Source: a bacterium (lineage in GTDB: Bacteria; Vulcanimicrobiota; JABDET01). From it: 64,000 nt of DNA. Within the stretch, counting starts at the first letter, position 1. Every line of letters begins with the position of its first letter. The DNA lies in assembly GCA_021800275.1 (NCBI GenBank), contig JAJYZB010000001.1, positions 62,001 through 126,000 on the forward strand. The letters are read 5' to 3'. Positions 24,915-33,493 of the stretch are shown here, one piece after another. The notes beneath the pieces were generated by a model. It had not been told where the DNA came from, searched no databases, and was given only the letters and a program-made list of their open reading frames with translations. Both the position numbers and the translations under genes were made by a program.

Positions 24915-26096
24915 ATGAAAAAAACCGTTATCATTAAAGGTTTGAGGACAGCAGTTGGAAGAGCTCCTAATGGAGCCCTCAAAGAGGTTCGTTCTGATGA
25001 ACTTGCTGCATCTGTGATCCTGGAACTATTGAAACGAACCCCTGAATTAAACCCTGAAGAGATTGGAGATGTTATTTTAGGCTGCGCTTTCCCTGAAGCA
25101 GAACAAGGAATGAATGTGGCAAGAATTGCGGCTTTGAGGGCAGGACTGCCAGCAGCAGTTCCAGGGATGACTATCAATCGTTTCTGCGCTTCAGGAATCC
25201 AGGCTGCTGCCTGTGCAGCGGATCTGATCCAATCAGAAACCTGTGAAGTGGTTCTGGCGGGAGGAACAGAAACCATGAGCCTTGTTCCAATGGGCGGCAG
25301 CAGCTTTTCCGCCAATCCCTATCTTGCCGAATCTTATCCTAACACTTATCTTTCTATGGGATTAACAGCGGAAAATCTGCAGCAGGAATTTGGCATCAGC
25401 CGCGAAGAACAGGATCTTTTTTCTTATCAAAGCCACAAAAAAGCTGTAAAAGCGATTGAAGAGGGAAAATTCAAAGAAGAAATTGTTCCTTTTTCATTTC
25501 AAAAAAAATATTGGGGTCAATCCAATGTTCCACAGTCTGAAACGATTGTTTTTATGGAAGATGAAGGACCTAGAAAAGACACCTCTCTCGATAAATTGTC
25601 GAAATTAAAACCTGTTTTTAAAGAAAATGGAACTGTAACTGCAGGAAATTCATCTCAATTAAGCGATGGAGCTGCAGTCATTCTGCTCATGTCTGAAGAA
25701 AAAGCGAAAGCAGCGGGTTTAAAACCTGTTGGGCGCCTCAAATCTTATGCGGTTTCAGGAGTTGAACCTGAACGGATGGGAATTGGACCTGTGAAAGCGA
25801 TTCCAAAAGCTTTAAAAATGGCGGACTTAACGCTCCAGGACATCGGTTTAATTGAACTCAATGAAGCTTTTGCCGCTCAAACTCTGGCTGTCATAAAATC
25901 GCTGGGAATAAACTCTGAAATTCTTAATGTCAATGGAGGAGCCATTGCTTTAGGACATCCTTTAGGCTGCACAGGAGCCAGACTCACCATCAGCCTTTTA
26001 AATGAAATGAAACGAAGAAAAGTGCAGTATGGAATGGTCAGTCTGTGTGTCGGCGGAGGAATGGGGGCAGCAGCGGTTTTTGAGCTGCTATCCTAA
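24915..26096 (+). CDS. fadA: Acetyl-CoA acyltransferase (thiolase)
   Basis: The 393-residue thiolase has the nucleophilic Cys in NRFCASGIQAAACAADL near residue 93. The catalytic His is in GGAIALGHPLGCTGAR and the second Cys in LCVGGGMGAAAVFE. It completes beta-oxidation, or the reverse condensation, with the FadN-type protein just upstream. No acyl-CoA dehydrogenase or ETF gene is nearby. The 3' end overlaps the convergent M50 gene by 9 bp. Confidence 0.96.
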   Translation: MKKTVIIKGLRTAVGRAPNGALKEVRSDELAASVILELLKRTPELNPEEIGDVILGCAFPEAEQGMNVARIAALRAGLPAAVPGMTINRFCASGIQAAACAADLIQSETCEVVLAGGTETMSLVPMGGSSFSANPYLAESYPNTYLSMGLTAENLQQEFGISREEQDLFSYQSHKKAVKAIEEGKFKEEIVPFSFQKKYWGQSNVPQSETIVFMEDEGPRKDTSLDKLSKLKPVFKENGTVTAGNSSQLSDGAAVILLMSEEKAKAAGLKPVGRLKSYAVSGVEPERMGIGPVKAIPKALKMADLTLQDIGLIELNEAFAAQTLAVIKSLGINSEILNVNGGAIALGHPLGCTGARLTISLLNEMKRRKVQYGMVSLCVGGGMGAAAVFELLS

Positions 26097-26606
26097 ATAC
26101 TGAACCGGATAAATCCCCTTTTTTCGGAAAAAGAGATCGAATAAAATAGCGCCATCATTAATAGCTTTGTCTTTTTCATACTTGGGAATAAAATTCACGA
26201 GGATCTGATCTAAAAAAAAGATGCCCAGCAGAATCTTGAAAATTAAACCATTAAAATGATACCAGAGAACCGCAAAAAATATAAATTCAAAAATTAAACC
26301 TCCTGAAGCAAAGAAAAACTGCTGAAAAGGAGAAAAAGTTTTAGAACCTCTCCCTCCTAAGATCGTTCTGCCAAACCAGGGAAAACGTCCTATGCGAAGA
26401 GTGAATTTTTTTATTCGATAATGCTGATAAGGCAGCCTCCCAATTTCAATTCCTGAAACAGGAAACCCCAGCAGCTTCCCAATCAGATAATGACCTGATT
26501 CATGGAGAAAAATAAAAAACAGCATCACAGACAAGAACAAAATCCAAAAAGGAAGCAGCAGAAAGCGTAAAAATCGAGGTAAAAATTTAACTTCCCCCAA
26601 AAACAT
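26088..26606 (-). CDS. M50-family (site-2-protease-like) membrane metalloprotease
   Basis: The 172-residue protein is almost entirely hydrophobic. The zinc site HESGH is at residues 35-39, inside the first membrane helix. A later DGAIL segment preceded by NFIP matches the third zinc ligand region of S2P proteases. No PDZ domain is present. It is the last gene of the hrcA-dnaK-dnaJ transcript and overlaps dnaJ by 20 bp, hinting at membrane-protein quality control or intramembrane signalling tied to heat shock. That link is inference. Confidence 0.8.
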   Translation of the reverse strand: MFLGEVKFLPRFLRFLLLPFWILFLSVMLFFIFLHESGHYLIGKLLGFPVSGIEIGRLPYQHYRIKKFTLRIGRFPWFGRTILGGRGSKTFSPFQQFFFASGGLIFEFIFFAVLWYHFNGLIFKILLGIFFLDQILVNFIPKYEKDKAINDGAILFDLFFRKKGIYPVQYLG

Positions 26607-27714
26607 CCTTTAATTTCCCCATAAATCCTTTACTTGAATTCAGATTAACTCCCGAAATTTTTGCGAACTCCTGCAGCAGCTCCTTTTGTCTGTCATTAAT
26701 TTTTCTAGGCACCTCCACCTCAATAAGGACCATTTGATCTCCTCTGCTCATTCCATTCAAACCTGACATTCCTTTTCCTCGCAGACGAAAAACGGCCCCA
26801 TTCTGGGTTCCTGGCGGTATTTCGAGTTTTTCTTTTCCATCCAACGTAGGGACTTCCAGTTCTGCCCCTAAAACAGCTGCTGGAAATGAAATGGACAAAT
26901 AACAGATGATATTTAACCCTTCCCTTTTAAACTGGGGATGTGATTTTACAAATATAAAAAGATACAAATCTCCAGGAGGAGAACCTCGAAACCCAGCGGC
27001 CCCTTCTCCTTTGATTCTGATTCTTGTTCCTTCATCTACCCCTGCAGGAATTCTGGCTTTAATTTTGCGTTTCCCTTCTATGACACCTGTTCCAGCGCAA
27101 GAATGACAGGGATCTTTTAAAATCTCCCCCATGCCATGACACTTCGAACAAACTGCAGTTCTAACCATCCGACCGAAAAAAGAATTGTGGACTTCTTTAA
27201 TCTGACCCTGTCCACGGCAGGTTGAACAAGTCTCATATCCCCCTTTATTAGCTCCTGTTCCACTGCAGTCCTGACAAGGAACTGGAATTTTAACAGATAT
27301 TTCTTTCTCAACTCCAGCATAAGCTTCTTCAAGCGTGATTTCTAAATCATATCGAATATCTTCCCCTCTTAAAGGAGTTCTGCTTCTGCCCGAACGCGGT
27401 GTTCCTTCGCCAAAAAATGCTCCAATCAAATCATCGAACATGTCAAACCCGGTCGAAAAATCGAAATTGATCCCGTTTCCTCCGCTGCCTCCCTCAAAAG
27501 CCGCATGACCGAACTGGTCATATTTCGCCCTTTTCTCGGAATTGGACAAAATAGAAAAAGCCTCATTAATCTCTTTGAACTTGACTTCTGCTTCCTGCTT
27601 GTTTTCAGAAACATCAGGGTGATACTGCCGAGCTAATCCGCGATAAGCCTGTTTAATTTCTTCAAGAGTCGCTCTGGGGGAAACTCCCAGAACCTCGTAA
27701 TAATCCCTTTTCAC
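26587..27714 (-). CDS. dnaJ: Chaperone protein DnaJ
   Basis: This is a full type I Hsp40. It has a J domain (residues 1-70) with HPD, a Gly/Phe-rich linker, and four CxxCxGxG zinc repeats (CQDCSGTG, CSTCRGQG, CSKCHGMG, CHSCAGTG) around residues 148-210. C-terminal substrate domains ending in a dimerisation tail complete it. It stimulates DnaK ATPase and delivers substrates. At 375 residues it is of normal size. The start overlaps the thioredoxin-like gene by 4 bp. Confidence 0.97.
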   Translation of the reverse strand: MKRDYYEVLGVSPRATLEEIKQAYRGLARQYHPDVSENKQEAEVKFKEINEAFSILSNSEKRAKYDQFGHAAFEGGSGGNGINFDFSTGFDMFDDLIGAFFGEGTPRSGRSRTPLRGEDIRYDLEITLEEAYAGVEKEISVKIPVPCQDCSGTGANKGGYETCSTCRGQGQIKEVHNSFFGRMVRTAVCSKCHGMGEILKDPCHSCAGTGVIEGKRKIKARIPAGVDEGTRIRIKGEGAAGFRGSPPGDLYLFIFVKSHPQFKREGLNIICYLSISFPAAVLGAELEVPTLDGKEKLEIPPGTQNGAVFRLRGKGMSGLNGMSRGDQMVLIEVEVPRKINDRQKELLQEFAKISGVNLNSSKGFMGKLKDVFGGS

Positions 27715-28166
27715 TTCTTCTGATTCTGTCCAAGCAGAGCCACTTCATGCATCACATGAGACAGCTCATCTGGAGGGATATACCCCTCTAATCTCCCTAT
27801 CTCCCCATTCTTGAAACTGGCAAAAATGATGGTGGGAAGTCCTTGAATTCCGAAATACTCAGTTAAAGCTTTATGTTTATCAATGTTGATTCTGGTCATG
27901 ACAAAATGATGAGAAAGACGAATCACACTGCGATTCTGATAACTGGTTTTTTCCATTAACTGACAGTATTCGCACCAGGTGGCATAAAAATCTAAAAACA
28001 AAGGGCGATTGTTCTTTTTTGCCACATTTAATGAAACAGGAACAGAGGTAATCCAGTGAATTTTTTCTGCTTTCTGATAAGGGTTAGAACCATGATAATA
28101 TCGAAAAAATAATGACAGTCCCACTCCTAAAACAGCTGCAGCCGCAAGAATAATCCATTTTTTCAT
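27711..28166 (-). CDS. Membrane-anchored thioredoxin-fold protein
   Basis: A hydrophobic N-terminus (residues 4-22) acts as an anchor or signal. The thioredoxin-like domain has WCEYC (Cys65 and Cys68), the conserved strand LFLDFYAT before it, and the cis-Pro segment GLPTIIFAS. It resembles the DsbD C-terminal/thioredoxin_7 group, so it is likely an extracytoplasmic disulfide reductase or carrier. It lies between dnaK and dnaJ with 4-bp overlaps on both sides, an unusual insertion in this operon. Confidence 0.85.
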
Positions 28167-30019
28167 GGTTTCTGCTTGTCAAACCACCCGAAAATCTCTT
28201 CCTTACTAGGTTCTTCTTGTTTTTCAGATAATCCTTCTGTTTCTGCTTTTGCGGGAACAGATTGAACTCCTGAAATAGATCTTTCAGGAGATAGATAGAG
28301 TTGAGAAGTCAACATAAAAATAGCATCTTGCAAACTTCTTGTCTCTTGTTTGATTTTATCGTAATCTCGATTTTCGAGAACCTCTTTAAGACTCATAATA
28401 ATAACTCTCACCTGCTGCACTTTATCATCTCCAAAAATCTGACCATAATCTTTCAAAGTTCTTTCAGCCACGTCTATTTCGACCGCTGCTTTATTTCGAA
28501 TCTGCCTTTCTTCTCTTAAACGAATATCTTCATCAGCAAACTGCTGCGCTTCTTTAATCATCCGATTAATTTCCTCCTGGGACAAACCGGTCGGAGACTG
28601 CATCACGATTTTTTGTTTATTTCCAGTGGCCAGATCTTTAGCAGAAGTGCTGACAATTCCATTTGCATCAATTTCAAAAGCCACCTCGATTTGAGGAATT
28701 CCCCTTTTAGCAGGAGGAATATTTCTCAAATCAAAGGATCCCAGAAATTTATTGTGCTGGGCAAGTTCTCTTTCACCTTGATAAACCCGAACTTCAACTG
28801 TTGTTTGTCCATCCACAACCGTTGTAAAAATTTTAGCCTTGGAGCAGGGAATCTGGGTATTTCTTTCAATAATTCGGGTGAAAGCGCCGCCTGTAGTCTC
28901 AATTCCTAAAGATAAACTGGTCACATCTAATAAAACCAGATCTTTCACTTCTCCCGCTAATACAGCGCCTTGAATTGCGGCTCCCATGGCTACGACTTTA
29001 TCGGGATCCACTTCTCTGCTCGGTTCTTTTAAAAAGAGCTTCTGCGCCATTTTCTGGACCATCGGCATTCGGGTTGAACCCCCAACCAGAATCACCTTGT
29101 TAATCTGTCCTAAAGGAATTTTTGCGTCATCCAGAGCCCTTTTCGAAGGAGCAGCCAGTCTGTCAACCAGATCTTTTGTCAATTCCTCAAATTTTTCACG
29201 GGTTAACTCCATATCCAAATGTTTAGGTCCGCTGGGATCTGCAGCGATAAAAGGGAGATTGATCCGAGTTGTTTCTTTTTCAGACAGATCCCATTTCGCC
29301 GTTTCTGCAGCCTCTTTCAACCTCTGCATCGCGATTCTATCAATTCTTAAATCAATCCCCGACGATTTTTTAAATCCATCTACCAGATAATCCATAATTC
29401 GGCGATCCCAATCATCTCCGCCCAACTTCATGTCACCACTGGTGGAAATGACTTCAAAAACCCCGCTTTCAATCGTTAAAATAGAAACGTCGAAGGTTCC
29501 ACCGCCCAGATCGAAAACAAGAACAGTTTGACTCCCCTCCATTTTCTCTAATCCATAAGCCATGGCTGCAGCAGTTGGCTCATTCACGATCCTGACCACT
29601 TCCATTCCTGCAATAGTTCCCGCATCTTTTGTCGCCTGTCTTTCGGCATCATTAAAATAAGCCGGAACTGTAATCACAGCTTTATCCACGGTTTCTCCTA
29701 AACTGGCTTCTGCGTCTGACCTGATTTTTTGCAGAATCATGGCAGAAATCTCCTGAGGGGTATATTCTTGTTCATCCACACGAGCTTTAAAATCGGTTCC
29801 CATCTGTCTTTTAATCGAGACAATCGTTCTCTCGGGATTTGAGACAGCCTGGCGTTTAGCTAATTCTCCAACCACTCTTTCTCCCAACTTCGTAAACCCA
29901 ACAACAGATGGAGTTAAATGACTTCCTTCCGCATTGGTGATGACAACAGGCTCTCCTGCTTCCATCACAGCAGCCAGAGAGTTTGTAGTTCCTAAATCAA
30001 TTCCTATGATCTTTCCCAT
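28163..30019 (-). CDS. dnaK: Chaperone protein DnaK (Hsp70)
   Basis: The N-terminal ATPase has [23 protein letters not shown] and [14 protein letters not shown]. The interdomain linker [16 protein letters not shown] is present and the substrate domain follows. At 618 residues it is normal, but the tail ends [13 protein letters not shown] instead of the usual acidic EEVD-like end. It works with DnaJ and GrpE from the same operon. The gene begins 17 bp after grpE. Confidence 0.98.
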
Positions 30020-30036
30020 AGCTTAATTAAATAAAG

Positions 30037-30828
30037 CTAATTCGCCAGAGAAGCTCTAGCTACCTTCACCAGAGCAGGGCGGATTACTTTTTCCCCCAGT
30101 TTATAACCTTTTCGTATTTCTTCTATCACCGTATTCTCAGGAACATCTTCTCGAATAACGGTTTCAGCAGCTTCATGAAGGGAAGGATCAAAAGCAGATC
30201 CATTCGTAGGAATTTCTTTCACTCCTTCTCTTGAAAAAATCTCCTCAATCTGTCTTTTAATCATTTCAACGCCCTGGAAAATAGAACTCGCATCCCCAAA
30301 ATCTTTAAAATTTAACGCTCTCTCCAGATTGTCAAGAATCGGAAGAATTTTCAGGATCATTTTCTGGCGAATTTCTTCGGCTTTTTCCTCTACTTTCTTT
30401 TCAGAACGCTTCCGCAATTTATCGAATTCTTCTTCTATCCGATCACACTCAGACTCAAGGCGGCCGCACTTCAATTCTAATCGCTCAACCACTTCCTGCT
30501 GCTCATTTAATTTTTTTTCAAAAATCTGTCTGTCATCTTCCGCAGCAAAAGGTTGAAGAGCTTTTGAAGGAACCGTAAATTCTTCTAAACGAACCTTTAA
30601 CTTCGAATTCTCTGCTGCTTCTTTTTCATACAAATCTTTTAAAGTAACAAGAGCCAGATGATAACAGGTCAAAAATTCTTTCAAGTTAAATGTTTTAGAA
30701 AGATTCTCACACTTATTTCTCAGAAAACCAAGATCCTCAACCTGCTCCGCCAGTGTCAAGAGATCCCGCAAATGCAGAGCGCGGTAATTAGAGCGATTTT
30801 CGCCTTTCTTTTCAGGAGATCTGCTCAT
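30037..30828 (-). CDS. grpE: Nucleotide exchange factor GrpE, long N-terminal extension
   Basis: The C-terminal half is a standard GrpE: coiled coil, ILPILDNLERALNF, and the beta domain with FDPSLHEAAETV and GYKLGEKVIRPALVKVA. At 263 residues it is longer than the common 180-200. The first ~90 residues are an extra helical region before the coiled coil, with three Cys or Leu-rich stretches of unknown use. It exchanges ADP on DnaK. It overlaps the chaperonin gene by 17 bp. Confidence 0.95.
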   Translation of the reverse strand: MSRSPEKKGENRSNYRALHLRDLLTLAEQVEDLGFLRNKCENLSKTFNLKEFLTCYHLALVTLKDLYEKEAAENSKLKVRLEEFTVPSKALQPFAAEDDRQIFEKKLNEQQEVVERLELKCGRLESECDRIEEEFDKLRKRSEKKVEEKAEEIRQKMILKILPILDNLERALNFKDFGDASSIFQGVEMIKRQIEEIFSREGVKEIPTNGSAFDPSLHEAAETVIREDVPENTVIEEIRKGYKLGEKVIRPALVKVARASLAN

Positions 30829-32362
30829 GATCCCTCATTTTCACGACGCGATTGATTCTCAAAATGGCTTGAGCCACTTCAGAAGCTGTCTTCAACGCAA
30901 ACACCTTCACTTTTAAAGGATCAACCACTTTTTTTTCCAGCATATCGGCAGATTCTCCTGTTTCAAAATCCAGAGATAGAGAATTGAGATCTTGTTTTGA
31001 CTGAAGCCTGCAGATTTCCTCCGTTTTCTCCAGAGAATTATAGCCCGCATTGACAGCCATTTGAAAAAAAGGCTGCTTTAAGCCCTGGATCACGCAGTCC
31101 AGGCCATAAGAAGTCATGCCGCTGAATTCGCTCCTGCGAGATTCCAAAAATCGAACACAGGTCAGTTCACTGGCGCCTCCGCCAGGGACTACTCCTGACT
31201 GGAAAGCCGCCTGAAGAGAAGACGCAGCATCTCTTGTTTTTCTCCTTTTTTCCTCTGTCACCTGATCCGTGTTAGCTCCCACCAAAAGTGTTGAACTCGG
31301 CTTCCCTACCCCTCCTAAAATAACTATCATGCCGATTTCTTCCATTTCAAAAACGCTTTCAGCCTTTCCCAAAAACGTTCGAATGGATTCCGAAGTACGA
31401 TTCAATCCCGAGCGTTTTAAAGATCGGGCTCCTGTGCAGTTTGAAATATCTTTAAGATCTCGAGACGTGATTCTTCGAGCAGCAAAAGCCCCTGCCTGAA
31501 TCAGAATCTCTTCTGCTTCAGGCTCAATTCCGCCTGTCGTAAAAACAACATTCACTCCGAGAGATAAAATCCTCTGTAAATTCTCTAAAAACCGCTGCTT
31601 CAAATCCATGTTTTTTTTGAATCCTGATTCAGTGCGCAGGGATTCATTCTCCACTTCTTCTGGGCCCAGATTGTCTTCCAGAAGAAGAATCACTGCAGAA
31701 GAAATCCTGACTGGCATTAATGTTGAAACCCTTCCTTTTGAAAGAAGAGTTCCTTTAATTAATTGATCCTCCACTCCTGTTCGGGCAAAAATAATATCCG
31801 CAAATTTAAAAGAATGAGATGAAATCTTCTCTTTCCCCAGCTGCTGAGCAGCCTGGAAAATCATGGCAGCAGTCTTTTCATCTCCTCTCCCGGCGGTCAC
31901 TGCCACCTGCAGCAGAAACGGATCCTGTAATTCTGTCACTGGAATTCGGCATTTCTCACGCAGAATCTCGATCCCCAGCTCAGCTGCCTTCTCTATCCCC
32001 TCTAAAAGCCTGGAAACAGGAACTCCTTTCAAAATCTGGGCGATCCCTTCTTTTAGAATGGCAGCTGCCATCACAATCGCTGTTGTCGTTCCATCCCCGA
32101 CCTGAATATACTGCGATTTTGCAGCTTCTAAAATCATGCGAGACGCAGGGTGAGAAATTTCCATTTTTTCTAAAATCGCAACCCCTGAATTCGTCACTAA
32201 AATTTCGCCAAAAGGACCGACCATCATGGTATCCAGCCCTTTAGGGCCAAGAGTTCCTTCAACGGCGCGGGAAACAGCAAGCACTGCTGCCGCATTATTG
32301 TTTAAAGCTGCAGTGACCTCATCCACCTCTACCGTTTTTTCGCTGACTGAATTTCTCATCAT
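30812..32362 (-). CDS. Archaeal-like (group III) chaperonin
   Basis: The 516-residue protein is a TCP-1/thermosome-type chaperonin rather than GroEL. Marks are TLGPKGLDTMMV (residues 37-48), the segment EKMEISHPASRMILEAAKSQ, GDGTTTAIVMA (89-99) and VVPGGGASEL. Bacterial group III chaperonins of this kind are known from some Clostridia, where they lie in the dnaK operon, exactly as here between hrcA and grpE. They form a closed double ring with a built-in lid and need no GroES. One oddity: the ATPase Asp of the TNDG (GroEL Asp52) motif is Ser59 here, while the second catalytic Asp (GroEL Asp398) is kept as Asp378. It starts 7 bp after the hrcA stop. Confidence 0.93.
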   Translation of the reverse strand: MMRNSVSEKTVEVDEVTAALNNNAAAVLAVSRAVEGTLGPKGLDTMMVGPFGEILVTNSGVAILEKMEISHPASRMILEAAKSQYIQVGDGTTTAIVMAAAILKEGIAQILKGVPVSRLLEGIEKAAELGIEILREKCRIPVTELQDPFLLQVAVTAGRGDEKTAAMIFQAAQQLGKEKISSHSFKFADIIFARTGVEDQLIKGTLLSKGRVSTLMPVRISSAVILLLEDNLGPEEVENESLRTESGFKKNMDLKQRFLENLQRILSLGVNVVFTTGGIEPEAEEILIQAGAFAARRITSRDLKDISNCTGARSLKRSGLNRTSESIRTFLGKAESVFEMEEIGMIVILGGVGKPSSTLLVGANTDQVTEEKRRKTRDAASSLQAAFQSGVVPGGGASELTCVRFLESRRSEFSGMTSYGLDCVIQGLKQPFFQMAVNAGYNSLEKTEEICRLQSKQDLNSLSLDFETGESADMLEKKVVDPLKVKVFALKTASEVAQAILRINRVVKMRDHEQIS

Positions 32363-32369
32363 CGCGCAG

Positions 32370-33407
32370 TTATGACAAAACCTGGCTCAAACTCTGCGAA
32401 ATCAAGTTGGACGCATATTCTACAAGGGGAACAACATGAGGGTAATCCATTCGGGTTGGACCGACTAAAGCCAGAACTCCATAACCGGTTTGGTCATTTC
32501 CAAACGGGCTGGCGACAACACTAAAATCCTGAAAATTTTTAAGTGGATTTTCATCTCCAATCACAACATTTAAACCGGCTTTGGAGACAATTCTCTCGAA
32601 AAATTTAAAGAACCGATCCCCCTGTTCAAAATACTCCATCAAAGTTTTCAATCTATCAATATCCTGAAATTCAGGCTGCTTCAAAAGCTGATTTGTTCCC
32701 TCCACCAGAATTTTCACTCTGCTTTCTCTCTCTAAAAATTGAGAAACCGCTCTTAAAATTCTAACTATTATTCCTGAAAGCATCTCATCTGCGAGGTCAT
32801 CTAAAAACTGATCATTGATTTGACTGAGAGGGATCCCGCTGAAATGCTCATTTAAAAAATTATTCAAAAACTCCAGCTTATCCTGAGGAACATCCATTTC
32901 TAAAATGCGGTCAAAAACAAAACCATTCTCTGTCACCAGAACGTAAAGGAATCTTTGGGCATCAATAGGCACCAGTTCGATTTTTTTAAAGACCAGGGTA
33001 GGAACCGCAAATTGAAAAGCAACAGCCGCATATCCACCAATGTAAGAGACAATTCTAGCAGCTGCTTTCAGCATGCCGTCTATCTCGTCAAATTCTTTAT
33101 CCATCTCCTTCGAAATCCACTTTCTTTCCTTTGCGGAAAGATATTTTCTCTTCATCAGCCAATCCACATAATGTCTGTAGCCCTTATCTGTGGGAACCCT
33201 TCCTGAAGAGGCGTGGGGCTGTTTTAGATAACCAGACTGTTCTAAATCACTCATCCAATTCCTTAAAGTGGCAGAACTGGAATCCAATCCATGCATTCCC
33301 TCAATGGAAAGGGAAGCCACAGGAGAAGCAGTCTGAATATATTGATTGACCACAACTTTCAGCAAGCGCTCTTTTTTCTGATCCAGGGGTTCTTCAATTT
33401 TCACCAT
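32370..33407 (-). CDS. hrcA: Heat-inducible transcription repressor HrcA
   Basis: The 345-residue protein has the winged-helix domain (KVVVNQYIQTASPVAS and LDSSSATLRNWMSDLEQSGYL) followed by SSGRVPTDKGYRHYVDWL. A GAF-like HrcA domain ends with GVLALVGPTRMDYPHVVPLV. HrcA represses heat-shock operons by binding CIRCE inverted repeats. No CIRCE (TTAGCACTC-N9-GAGTGCTAA) is visible upstream of this operon. The ATG is only 8 bases after a TATAAT box and lacks a ribosome site, so the message may be leaderless. Confidence 0.96.
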   Translation of the reverse strand: MVKIEEPLDQKKERLLKVVVNQYIQTASPVASLSIEGMHGLDSSSATLRNWMSDLEQSGYLKQPHASSGRVPTDKGYRHYVDWLMKRKYLSAKERKWISKEMDKEFDEIDGMLKAAARIVSYIGGYAAVAFQFAVPTLVFKKIELVPIDAQRFLYVLVTENGFVFDRILEMDVPQDKLEFLNNFLNEHFSGIPLSQINDQFLDDLADEMLSGIIVRILRAVSQFLERESRVKILVEGTNQLLKQPEFQDIDRLKTLMEYFEQGDRFFKFFERIVSKAGLNVVIGDENPLKNFQDFSVVASPFGNDQTGYGVLALVGPTRMDYPHVVPLVEYASNLISQSLSQVLS

Positions 33408-33415
33408 TATGCTAT

Positions 33416-33421
33416 ATTATA
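33416..33421 (-). promoter_or_regulatory. -10 box of the hrcA-dnaK operon, possibly leaderless
   Basis: On the minus strand a perfect TATAAT lies here, 8 bases before the hrcA ATG. Normal initiation 6-8 bases downstream would place the 5' end at or next to the start codon. The -35 region is poor, which fits a regulated promoter or one read by an alternative sigma factor. Confidence 0.45.
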
Positions 33422-33493
33422 TACCCACTCAGACAGGATTATTCCTTGTAAACGCAAAAGAATAACTCTGAATCGCTGCTGTAAAACCGGACC

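Follow-up and report, generated by a model that had tools for sequence, protein, structure and literature searches.

A Group III chaperonin/Hsp70 operon enlarged by genes for a thioredoxin-fold and an M50-like membrane protein in one bacterial family

The window that we analysed, 64,000 nucleotides of the bacterial contig JAJYZB010000001.1 (assembly GCA_021800275.1), carries on its minus strand (26088-33407) seven intact open reading frames (ORFs) in the order hrcA-chaperonin-grpE-dnaK-thioredoxin-dnaJ-M50. Our reading of this locus, which we consider probable, is that it represents a published type of Group III chaperonin/Hsp70 operon, found in a deep lineage and enlarged within one family by two genes for membrane proteins, giving it a cytoplasmic and a membrane arm. 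Judging from the sequences, these two genes, encoding a thioredoxin-fold protein (trx) and an M50-like protein, are the new part on an operon type already published, and we regard the finding as moderately interesting. The order, coordinates and identities of the genes agree with the original prediction, which had been made from the DNA letters alone, and matches to protein families bear them out (lengths in amino acids, aa):

32370..33407, minus strand: hrcA, heat-inducible repressor, gene 1 of the operon, 345 aa from ATG (TIGR00331, 297.7 bits against a cut-off of 197.2)
30812..32362, minus strand: Group III (archaeal-like) chaperonin, 516 aa, built-in lid, without the nucleotide-sensing loop (415 bits to 5x9u; alignment; trees)
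30037..30828, minus strand: grpE, nucleotide exchange factor, 263 aa, with an extra N-terminal ~100 aa (PF01025 at residues 104-257)
28163..30019, minus strand: dnaK (Hsp70), 618 aa (NF001413, 840 bits)
27711..28166, minus strand: trx, thioredoxin-fold protein, predicted membrane-anchored, DsbD-gamma-like, 151 aa, one N-terminal transmembrane segment, WCEYC and GLPT (PF13098, 60 bits)
26587..27714, minus strand: dnaJ (Hsp40), 375 aa, GTG start, full-length with J domain, zinc centre and C-terminal domain (TIGR02349, 434 bits)
26088..26606, minus strand: minimal M50 / site-2-protease-like membrane protein, 172 aa, HESGH and NDG (PF02163, E 3.7e-5, below the cut-off)

Measured from stop to start, the six junctions are +7 nt (hrcA/chaperonin), -17 nt (chaperonin/grpE), +17 nt (grpE/dnaK), -4 nt (dnaK/trx), -4 nt (trx/dnaJ) and -20 nt (dnaJ/M50), and the seven-gene set is thus compact enough for one transcript. 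The original description of genes all linked by overlaps holds for four of these junctions; hrcA/chaperonin and grpE/dnaK are short gaps.

The insertion of trx and M50 recurs in other genomes. In a genome of the same genus (the congener, with a chaperonin 79% identical), all seven genes and all four overlaps recur, including M50 after dnaJ. Genome G002 (67% complete) represents a second genus of this family; one of its contigs, 4.9 kb long, opens within dnaK and continues with trx-dnaJ-M50-prmA-rsmE, and the encoded Trx and M50 proteins are 41% and 44% identical to those of the window. The search for this gene order elsewhere, proposed with the original prediction, therefore found all seven genes repeated in the congener and dnaK-trx-dnaJ-M50 in a different genus, and on the same grounds we reject an assembly artefact. 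The DnaK tail of G002 reads EEEIFDWFKKQKS; DnaK ends in EEIFxWFxKQK in both genera (window 28163-28200; L140:1-80).

For comparison we used 80 named loci, mostly from Bacillota with a few from Armatimonadota, and nine from genomes of the window's phylum; two of the named Armatimonadota loci are the same contigs as phylum genomes. The gap between dnaK and dnaJ, usually ~108 nt in the 69 loci that have both genes, is filled by trx in the window and the congener. Profiles of trx and M50 matched no ORF of the other Group III loci examined, and the M50 profile, run over 149 genomes of the phylum, otherwise yielded just weak matches to larger proteins. A literature search that covered few subscription papers, with the supplementary lists of PMC5635000 outside it, returned nothing relevant on trx or M50 in dnaK operons. 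The combination of the two genes with a Group III operon, for which the original prediction knew no precedent, was thus seen in no other locus examined and in no paper found. Between window and congener (synonymous rate, dS, near 1), the ratio of nonsynonymous to synonymous substitution (dN/dS) is 0.16 for trx, 0.20 for M50 and 0.07-0.13 for the other five genes, which indicates that trx and M50 are maintained under purifying selection.

A serious rival explanation, which we hold to be possible though doubtful, is that trx and M50, as ordinary housekeeping genes for membrane proteins, inserted into an operon with strong expression, stayed there for the expression level alone and do not act with the chaperones. 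Unrelated genes often share bacterial operons, the insertion is limited to one family, and prmA and rsmE come after M50 in the second genus, all of which speaks for such hitch-hiking. It sits less easily with there being two separate insertions, which flank dnaJ and both have tight overlaps, and with the retention of both genes in two genera at 41-44% protein identity, even though the window genus has no prmA-rsmE behind M50. The classical Bacillota dnaK operon, hrcA-grpE-dnaK-dnaJ-prmA-rsmE, has the same core order, and the second genus retains its prmA-rsmE behind dnaJ-M50. The window differs from it by the inserted chaperonin, trx and M50, and by having, instead of prmA-rsmE after M50, a convergent thiolase gene that overlaps the M50 end by 9 nt; on the 5' side lie divergent tetratricopeptide repeat (TPR) genes, from 33494.

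The best NCBIfam rows for the thioredoxin-fold protein are of DsbD type, and its PDB matches are thioredoxins and the C-terminal domain of DsbD. WCxYC and the cis-proline are invariant in the three homologues. Since lysines precede its N-terminal transmembrane segment (residues 3-21), the thioredoxin domain is predicted, from hydropathy and the positive-inside rule, to face outside the cytoplasm. The genome encodes one DsbD_TM protein, and this DsbD_TM/CcdA protein could be the electron source for Trx. The likeness to DsbD-gamma and related membrane-anchored thioredoxins extends to WCxxC after a D-F/L-Y-A motif, the GLPT cis-proline and the predicted extracytoplasmic placement, while Trx of the window is distinct in standing alone with a single N-terminal transmembrane segment, in its WCEYC active site and in being encoded in a dnaK operon.

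For the M50-like protein, a profile of the three homologues reaches Aquifex RseP (E 6e-5). RseP structures are also the best match of a model predicted from the three sequences (mean predicted local distance difference test score, pLDDT, 79); the Foldseek values (E 2e-5 to 6e-4, probability 1.00, template-modelling score 0.44-0.49 by query) correspond to the core fold of site-2 proteases. H35, E36 and H39, together with N150, D151 and G152, are invariant in the three homologues. From these motifs and the predicted model, we infer that the protein may be an intramembrane protease. It shares with the M50 site-2 proteases RseP and SpoIVFB an HExGH motif in the first core helix, an NDG third-ligand motif, a beta element between the core helices and the fold match to RseP. 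It differs in its length of 172 aa, which leaves no room for a PDZ domain, in having NDG for the usual LDG and in its sub-threshold Pfam score. The genome also encodes a separate, larger M50 protein.

The chaperonin itself, judging from similarity, indels, operon slot and the larger of two trees taken together, is a Group III chaperonin and not GroEL. Ch-CPN of Carboxydothermus hydrogenoformans (5x9u) is its best natural structural relative at 415 bits, compared with at best 203 bits for natural archaeal thermosomes and a best segment of just 64 bits for the GroEL of its own genome. The nucleotide-sensing loop is missing as in Ch-CPN, with the same gap pattern against Group II, and the lid region aligns to Ch-CPN without gaps, as a built-in lid with the Group III deletion. 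Arg159, the equivalent of Ch-CPN Arg155, is invariant in the alignment, and the ATP-site motifs GDGTTT and Asp378 are conserved. The genome holds exactly two Cpn60-family genes, the second being a true groEL beside groES on contig C29. Scores, indels and this separate groES-groEL reject an identity as GroEL, and the thermosome-type ring within an Hsp70 operon that the original prediction described is upheld by scores, indels and operon slot.

In an 81-row tree, the chaperonin falls outside GroEL (support 100), and it groups with Group III as distinct from Group II (SH-aLRT, a Shimodaira-Hasegawa-like likelihood-ratio support, 92); window and congener form a long two-species branch whose position within Group III is not fixed. 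In a smaller, carefully made 31-row tree, the window pair joins the sequences of its own phylum at weak support (56/84), and the border between Groups II and III is not settled. Clustering with GroEL, the outcome against which a phylogeny had been proposed, is seen neither in the best trees nor in similarity or indels, although approximately unbiased (AU) tests on the 31-row tree did not reject alternative attachments of the window branch, GroEL side included (p 0.24-0.26). It is because of the weak small tree and these AU tests that we base the Group III assignment on the combined evidence.

As to its origin, a transfer of the chaperonin from Bacillota, in place of inheritance with the operon in the phylum, would be compatible with any functional reading, and we consider it unlikely. 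The highest identity outside the genus is indeed to Bacillota sequences (48%), and the place of the chaperonin within Group III is not resolved. On the other side stand the union with the phylum's sequences in the careful tree, weakly supported as it is, the grouping of the neighbouring DnaK with the phylum's DnaK at 100/100, and the presence of such a chaperonin in 10 of 149 genomes of the phylum (~7%), scattered over several families and in the same operon slot. One of the phylum's chaperonins, from another family (L041:8122-9618, genome G006), is very divergent, with 32% identity and an extremely long branch, and occupies the same hrcA-cpn-grpE-dnaK slot. Among PDB entries, 9rwq and 9rwp are both named 'Ancestral Group II Chaperonin (ACII)' and differ in sequence; 9rwq is far nearer to the window chaperonin (457 vs 236 bits) and may be a Group III ancestor under the wrong name.

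The original prediction knew of Group III chaperonins in dnaK operons from a few Clostridia. This is too narrow, given that the arrangement spans Bacillota (Clostridia, Paenibacillaceae and Thermoactinomycetaceae) as well as Armatimonadota and is a general published rule: Group III chaperonins are encoded in the DnaK operon, with one exception (PMC5635000, PMC5220055). In the literature they figure mainly as a feature of Firmicutes that may have come from archaea. Within the scope of our literature search, few subscription papers being covered, no paper on Group III chaperonins in Armatimonadetes was found, and cpnDB puts Armatimonadetes under type I. Within the reach of their contigs, the Group III loci that we compared show hrcA-cpn-grpE-dnaK-dnaJ. 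The exceptions are L084, in which we detected neither grpE nor dnaK, and L036, in which we found no dnaJ within ~3 kb after dnaK. From the published rule and the surveyed loci, a chaperonin in the dnaK operon is therefore to be expected once the gene is present. The reference for the Group III chaperonin and the dnaK operon is reportedly Techtmann and Robb, 2010. With the Ch-CPN operon (PDB 5x9u/5x9v; PMC5635000, PMC5220055), the window has in common the chaperonin class, the slot between hrcA and grpE and a GroES-GroEL alongside; by contrast, its host probably lies outside Bacillota, it adds trx between dnaK and dnaJ and M50 after dnaJ, and it has no CIRCE (controlling inverted repeat of chaperone expression) at hrcA.

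Scanning for CIRCE was done with the canonical pattern, allowing up to three mismatches, and the survey of loci covered 300 nt around hrcA. The window genome has a single CIRCE-like site (3 mismatches), TTAGCAGTTAAGGAGTAAGACTGCTAA, which stands before groES, and a nearly identical site lies before groES in the congener and, under a related pattern, nowhere else. The two regulatory features are:

G000:C29:120265-120291 (L142): variant CIRCE (TTAGCAGT...GACTGCTAA) before groES, unique in the genome and conserved in the congener
33419..33424, minus strand: candidate -10 (TATAAT) of hrcA, ~11 nt before the GTG start (consensus match only; the congener and the groES upstream region have a similar GGGTATAAT)

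Upstream of hrcA in the window there is no CIRCE within 3 mismatches, the best match having 7. At that level, CIRCE occurs within 300 nt of hrcA in 68 of 72 Bacillota loci vs none of 10 phylum loci (one has a site with 4 mismatches). This distribution suggests that HrcA probably does not act through CIRCE on the operon that holds its gene. Of the single regulon that had been proposed, co-transcription is probable from the compact junctions; with the operator at groESL alone and none at hrcA, control as one regulon is not established. An inverted repeat at 33434-33470 (14-nt arms, 79%, 9-nt spacer) fits CIRCE in layout and not in sequence; it is partly shared with the congener, and so we do not claim it. 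The upstream regions of hrcA and groES both hold a GGGTATAAT-like -10. An alignment of the start regions gives GTG at 33404 as the hrcA start common to window and congener, and the candidate -10 ends ~11 nt ahead of it (window 33404-33424), or 8 nt in the congener, a distance so short that the hrcA mRNA may be nearly leaderless. Consensus promoter and terminator scans of the operon region gave no clear excess over shuffles.

The absence of CIRCE at the operon also bears on a different role for the two membrane proteins, in which M50 would be a site-2 protease cleaving a membrane-bound regulator and Trx a redox sensor, the pair controlling the operon in place of HrcA-CIRCE. M50/S2P (site-2 protease) proteins commonly act in regulated intramembrane proteolysis, as is established for RseP and SpoIVFB. 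We nevertheless find this role very improbable: no sigma or anti-sigma gene adjoins M50, the protein has too few residues to hold a PDZ domain like that of RseP, and the genome has its separate, larger M50 protein.

GrpE carries an N-terminal extension of ~100 aa (window 30520-30828) without a convincing Pfam match. In other genomes of the phylum such extensions measure 178-234 aa, and in G010 the extension is ~780 aa in a protein of 998 aa (L036:4963-7959; L037:9894-10901; L040:9646-10863).

Returning to the reading that we favour, an enlarged operon with a cytoplasmic and a membrane arm, we infer a joint function of its chaperone and membrane genes, which might work as follows. The seven genes would form one transcript. 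DnaK, DnaJ and GrpE would bind unfolded cytoplasmic proteins and pass some of them, by a hand-over from Hsp70 to ring that has been proposed in the literature, to the lidded Group III ring, which would close without GroES. Trx, with its active site outside the cytoplasm, would receive electrons from a CcdA/DsbD-type membrane protein and reduce or reshuffle wrong disulfides in exported proteins, and the minimal M50 protease would cleave damaged or leftover membrane proteins in their membrane segments. With 4-nt overlaps on both sides, the placement of trx between dnaK and dnaJ would keep this membrane arm in step with Hsp70 under stress.

It is important to note several points that weigh against this reading. 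The insertion is carried by three genomes only, one of which is the 67% complete one whose contig runs from inside dnaK and does not reach the slot where a chaperonin gene would lie. The M50 protein scores 23.6 bits and its homologues 18-27 bits, where the curated Pfam cut-off for M50 (PF02163) is 27.2 bits, and we therefore call it M50-like only. The topology of Trx is a prediction from hydropathy and the positive-inside rule. Finally, the CIRCE-like operator is confined to groESL, and heat induction of the seven-gene operon via HrcA is unproven. Another version, in which Trx and M50 act directly with DnaJ/DnaK and the ring on membrane-straddling proteins, in a family-specific two-sided proteostasis operon from which HrcA control has passed to groESL alone, strikes us as improbable.

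Taken as an enlarged Group III/Hsp70 operon, the locus bears on three matters. A chaperonin gene present in ~7% of the phylum's genomes, in the same slot and next to a DnaK that groups with the phylum, makes it possible to test whether the operon goes back further than a Firmicutes trait, possibly taken over from archaea, would imply. The CIRCE contrast suggests that an operon-encoded repressor need not control its own operon. The conserved insertion of trx and M50 around dnaJ offers a concrete, testable link of Hsp70 to membrane and redox quality control, and in this family the two membrane genes may tie cytoplasmic folding to quality control at the membrane.

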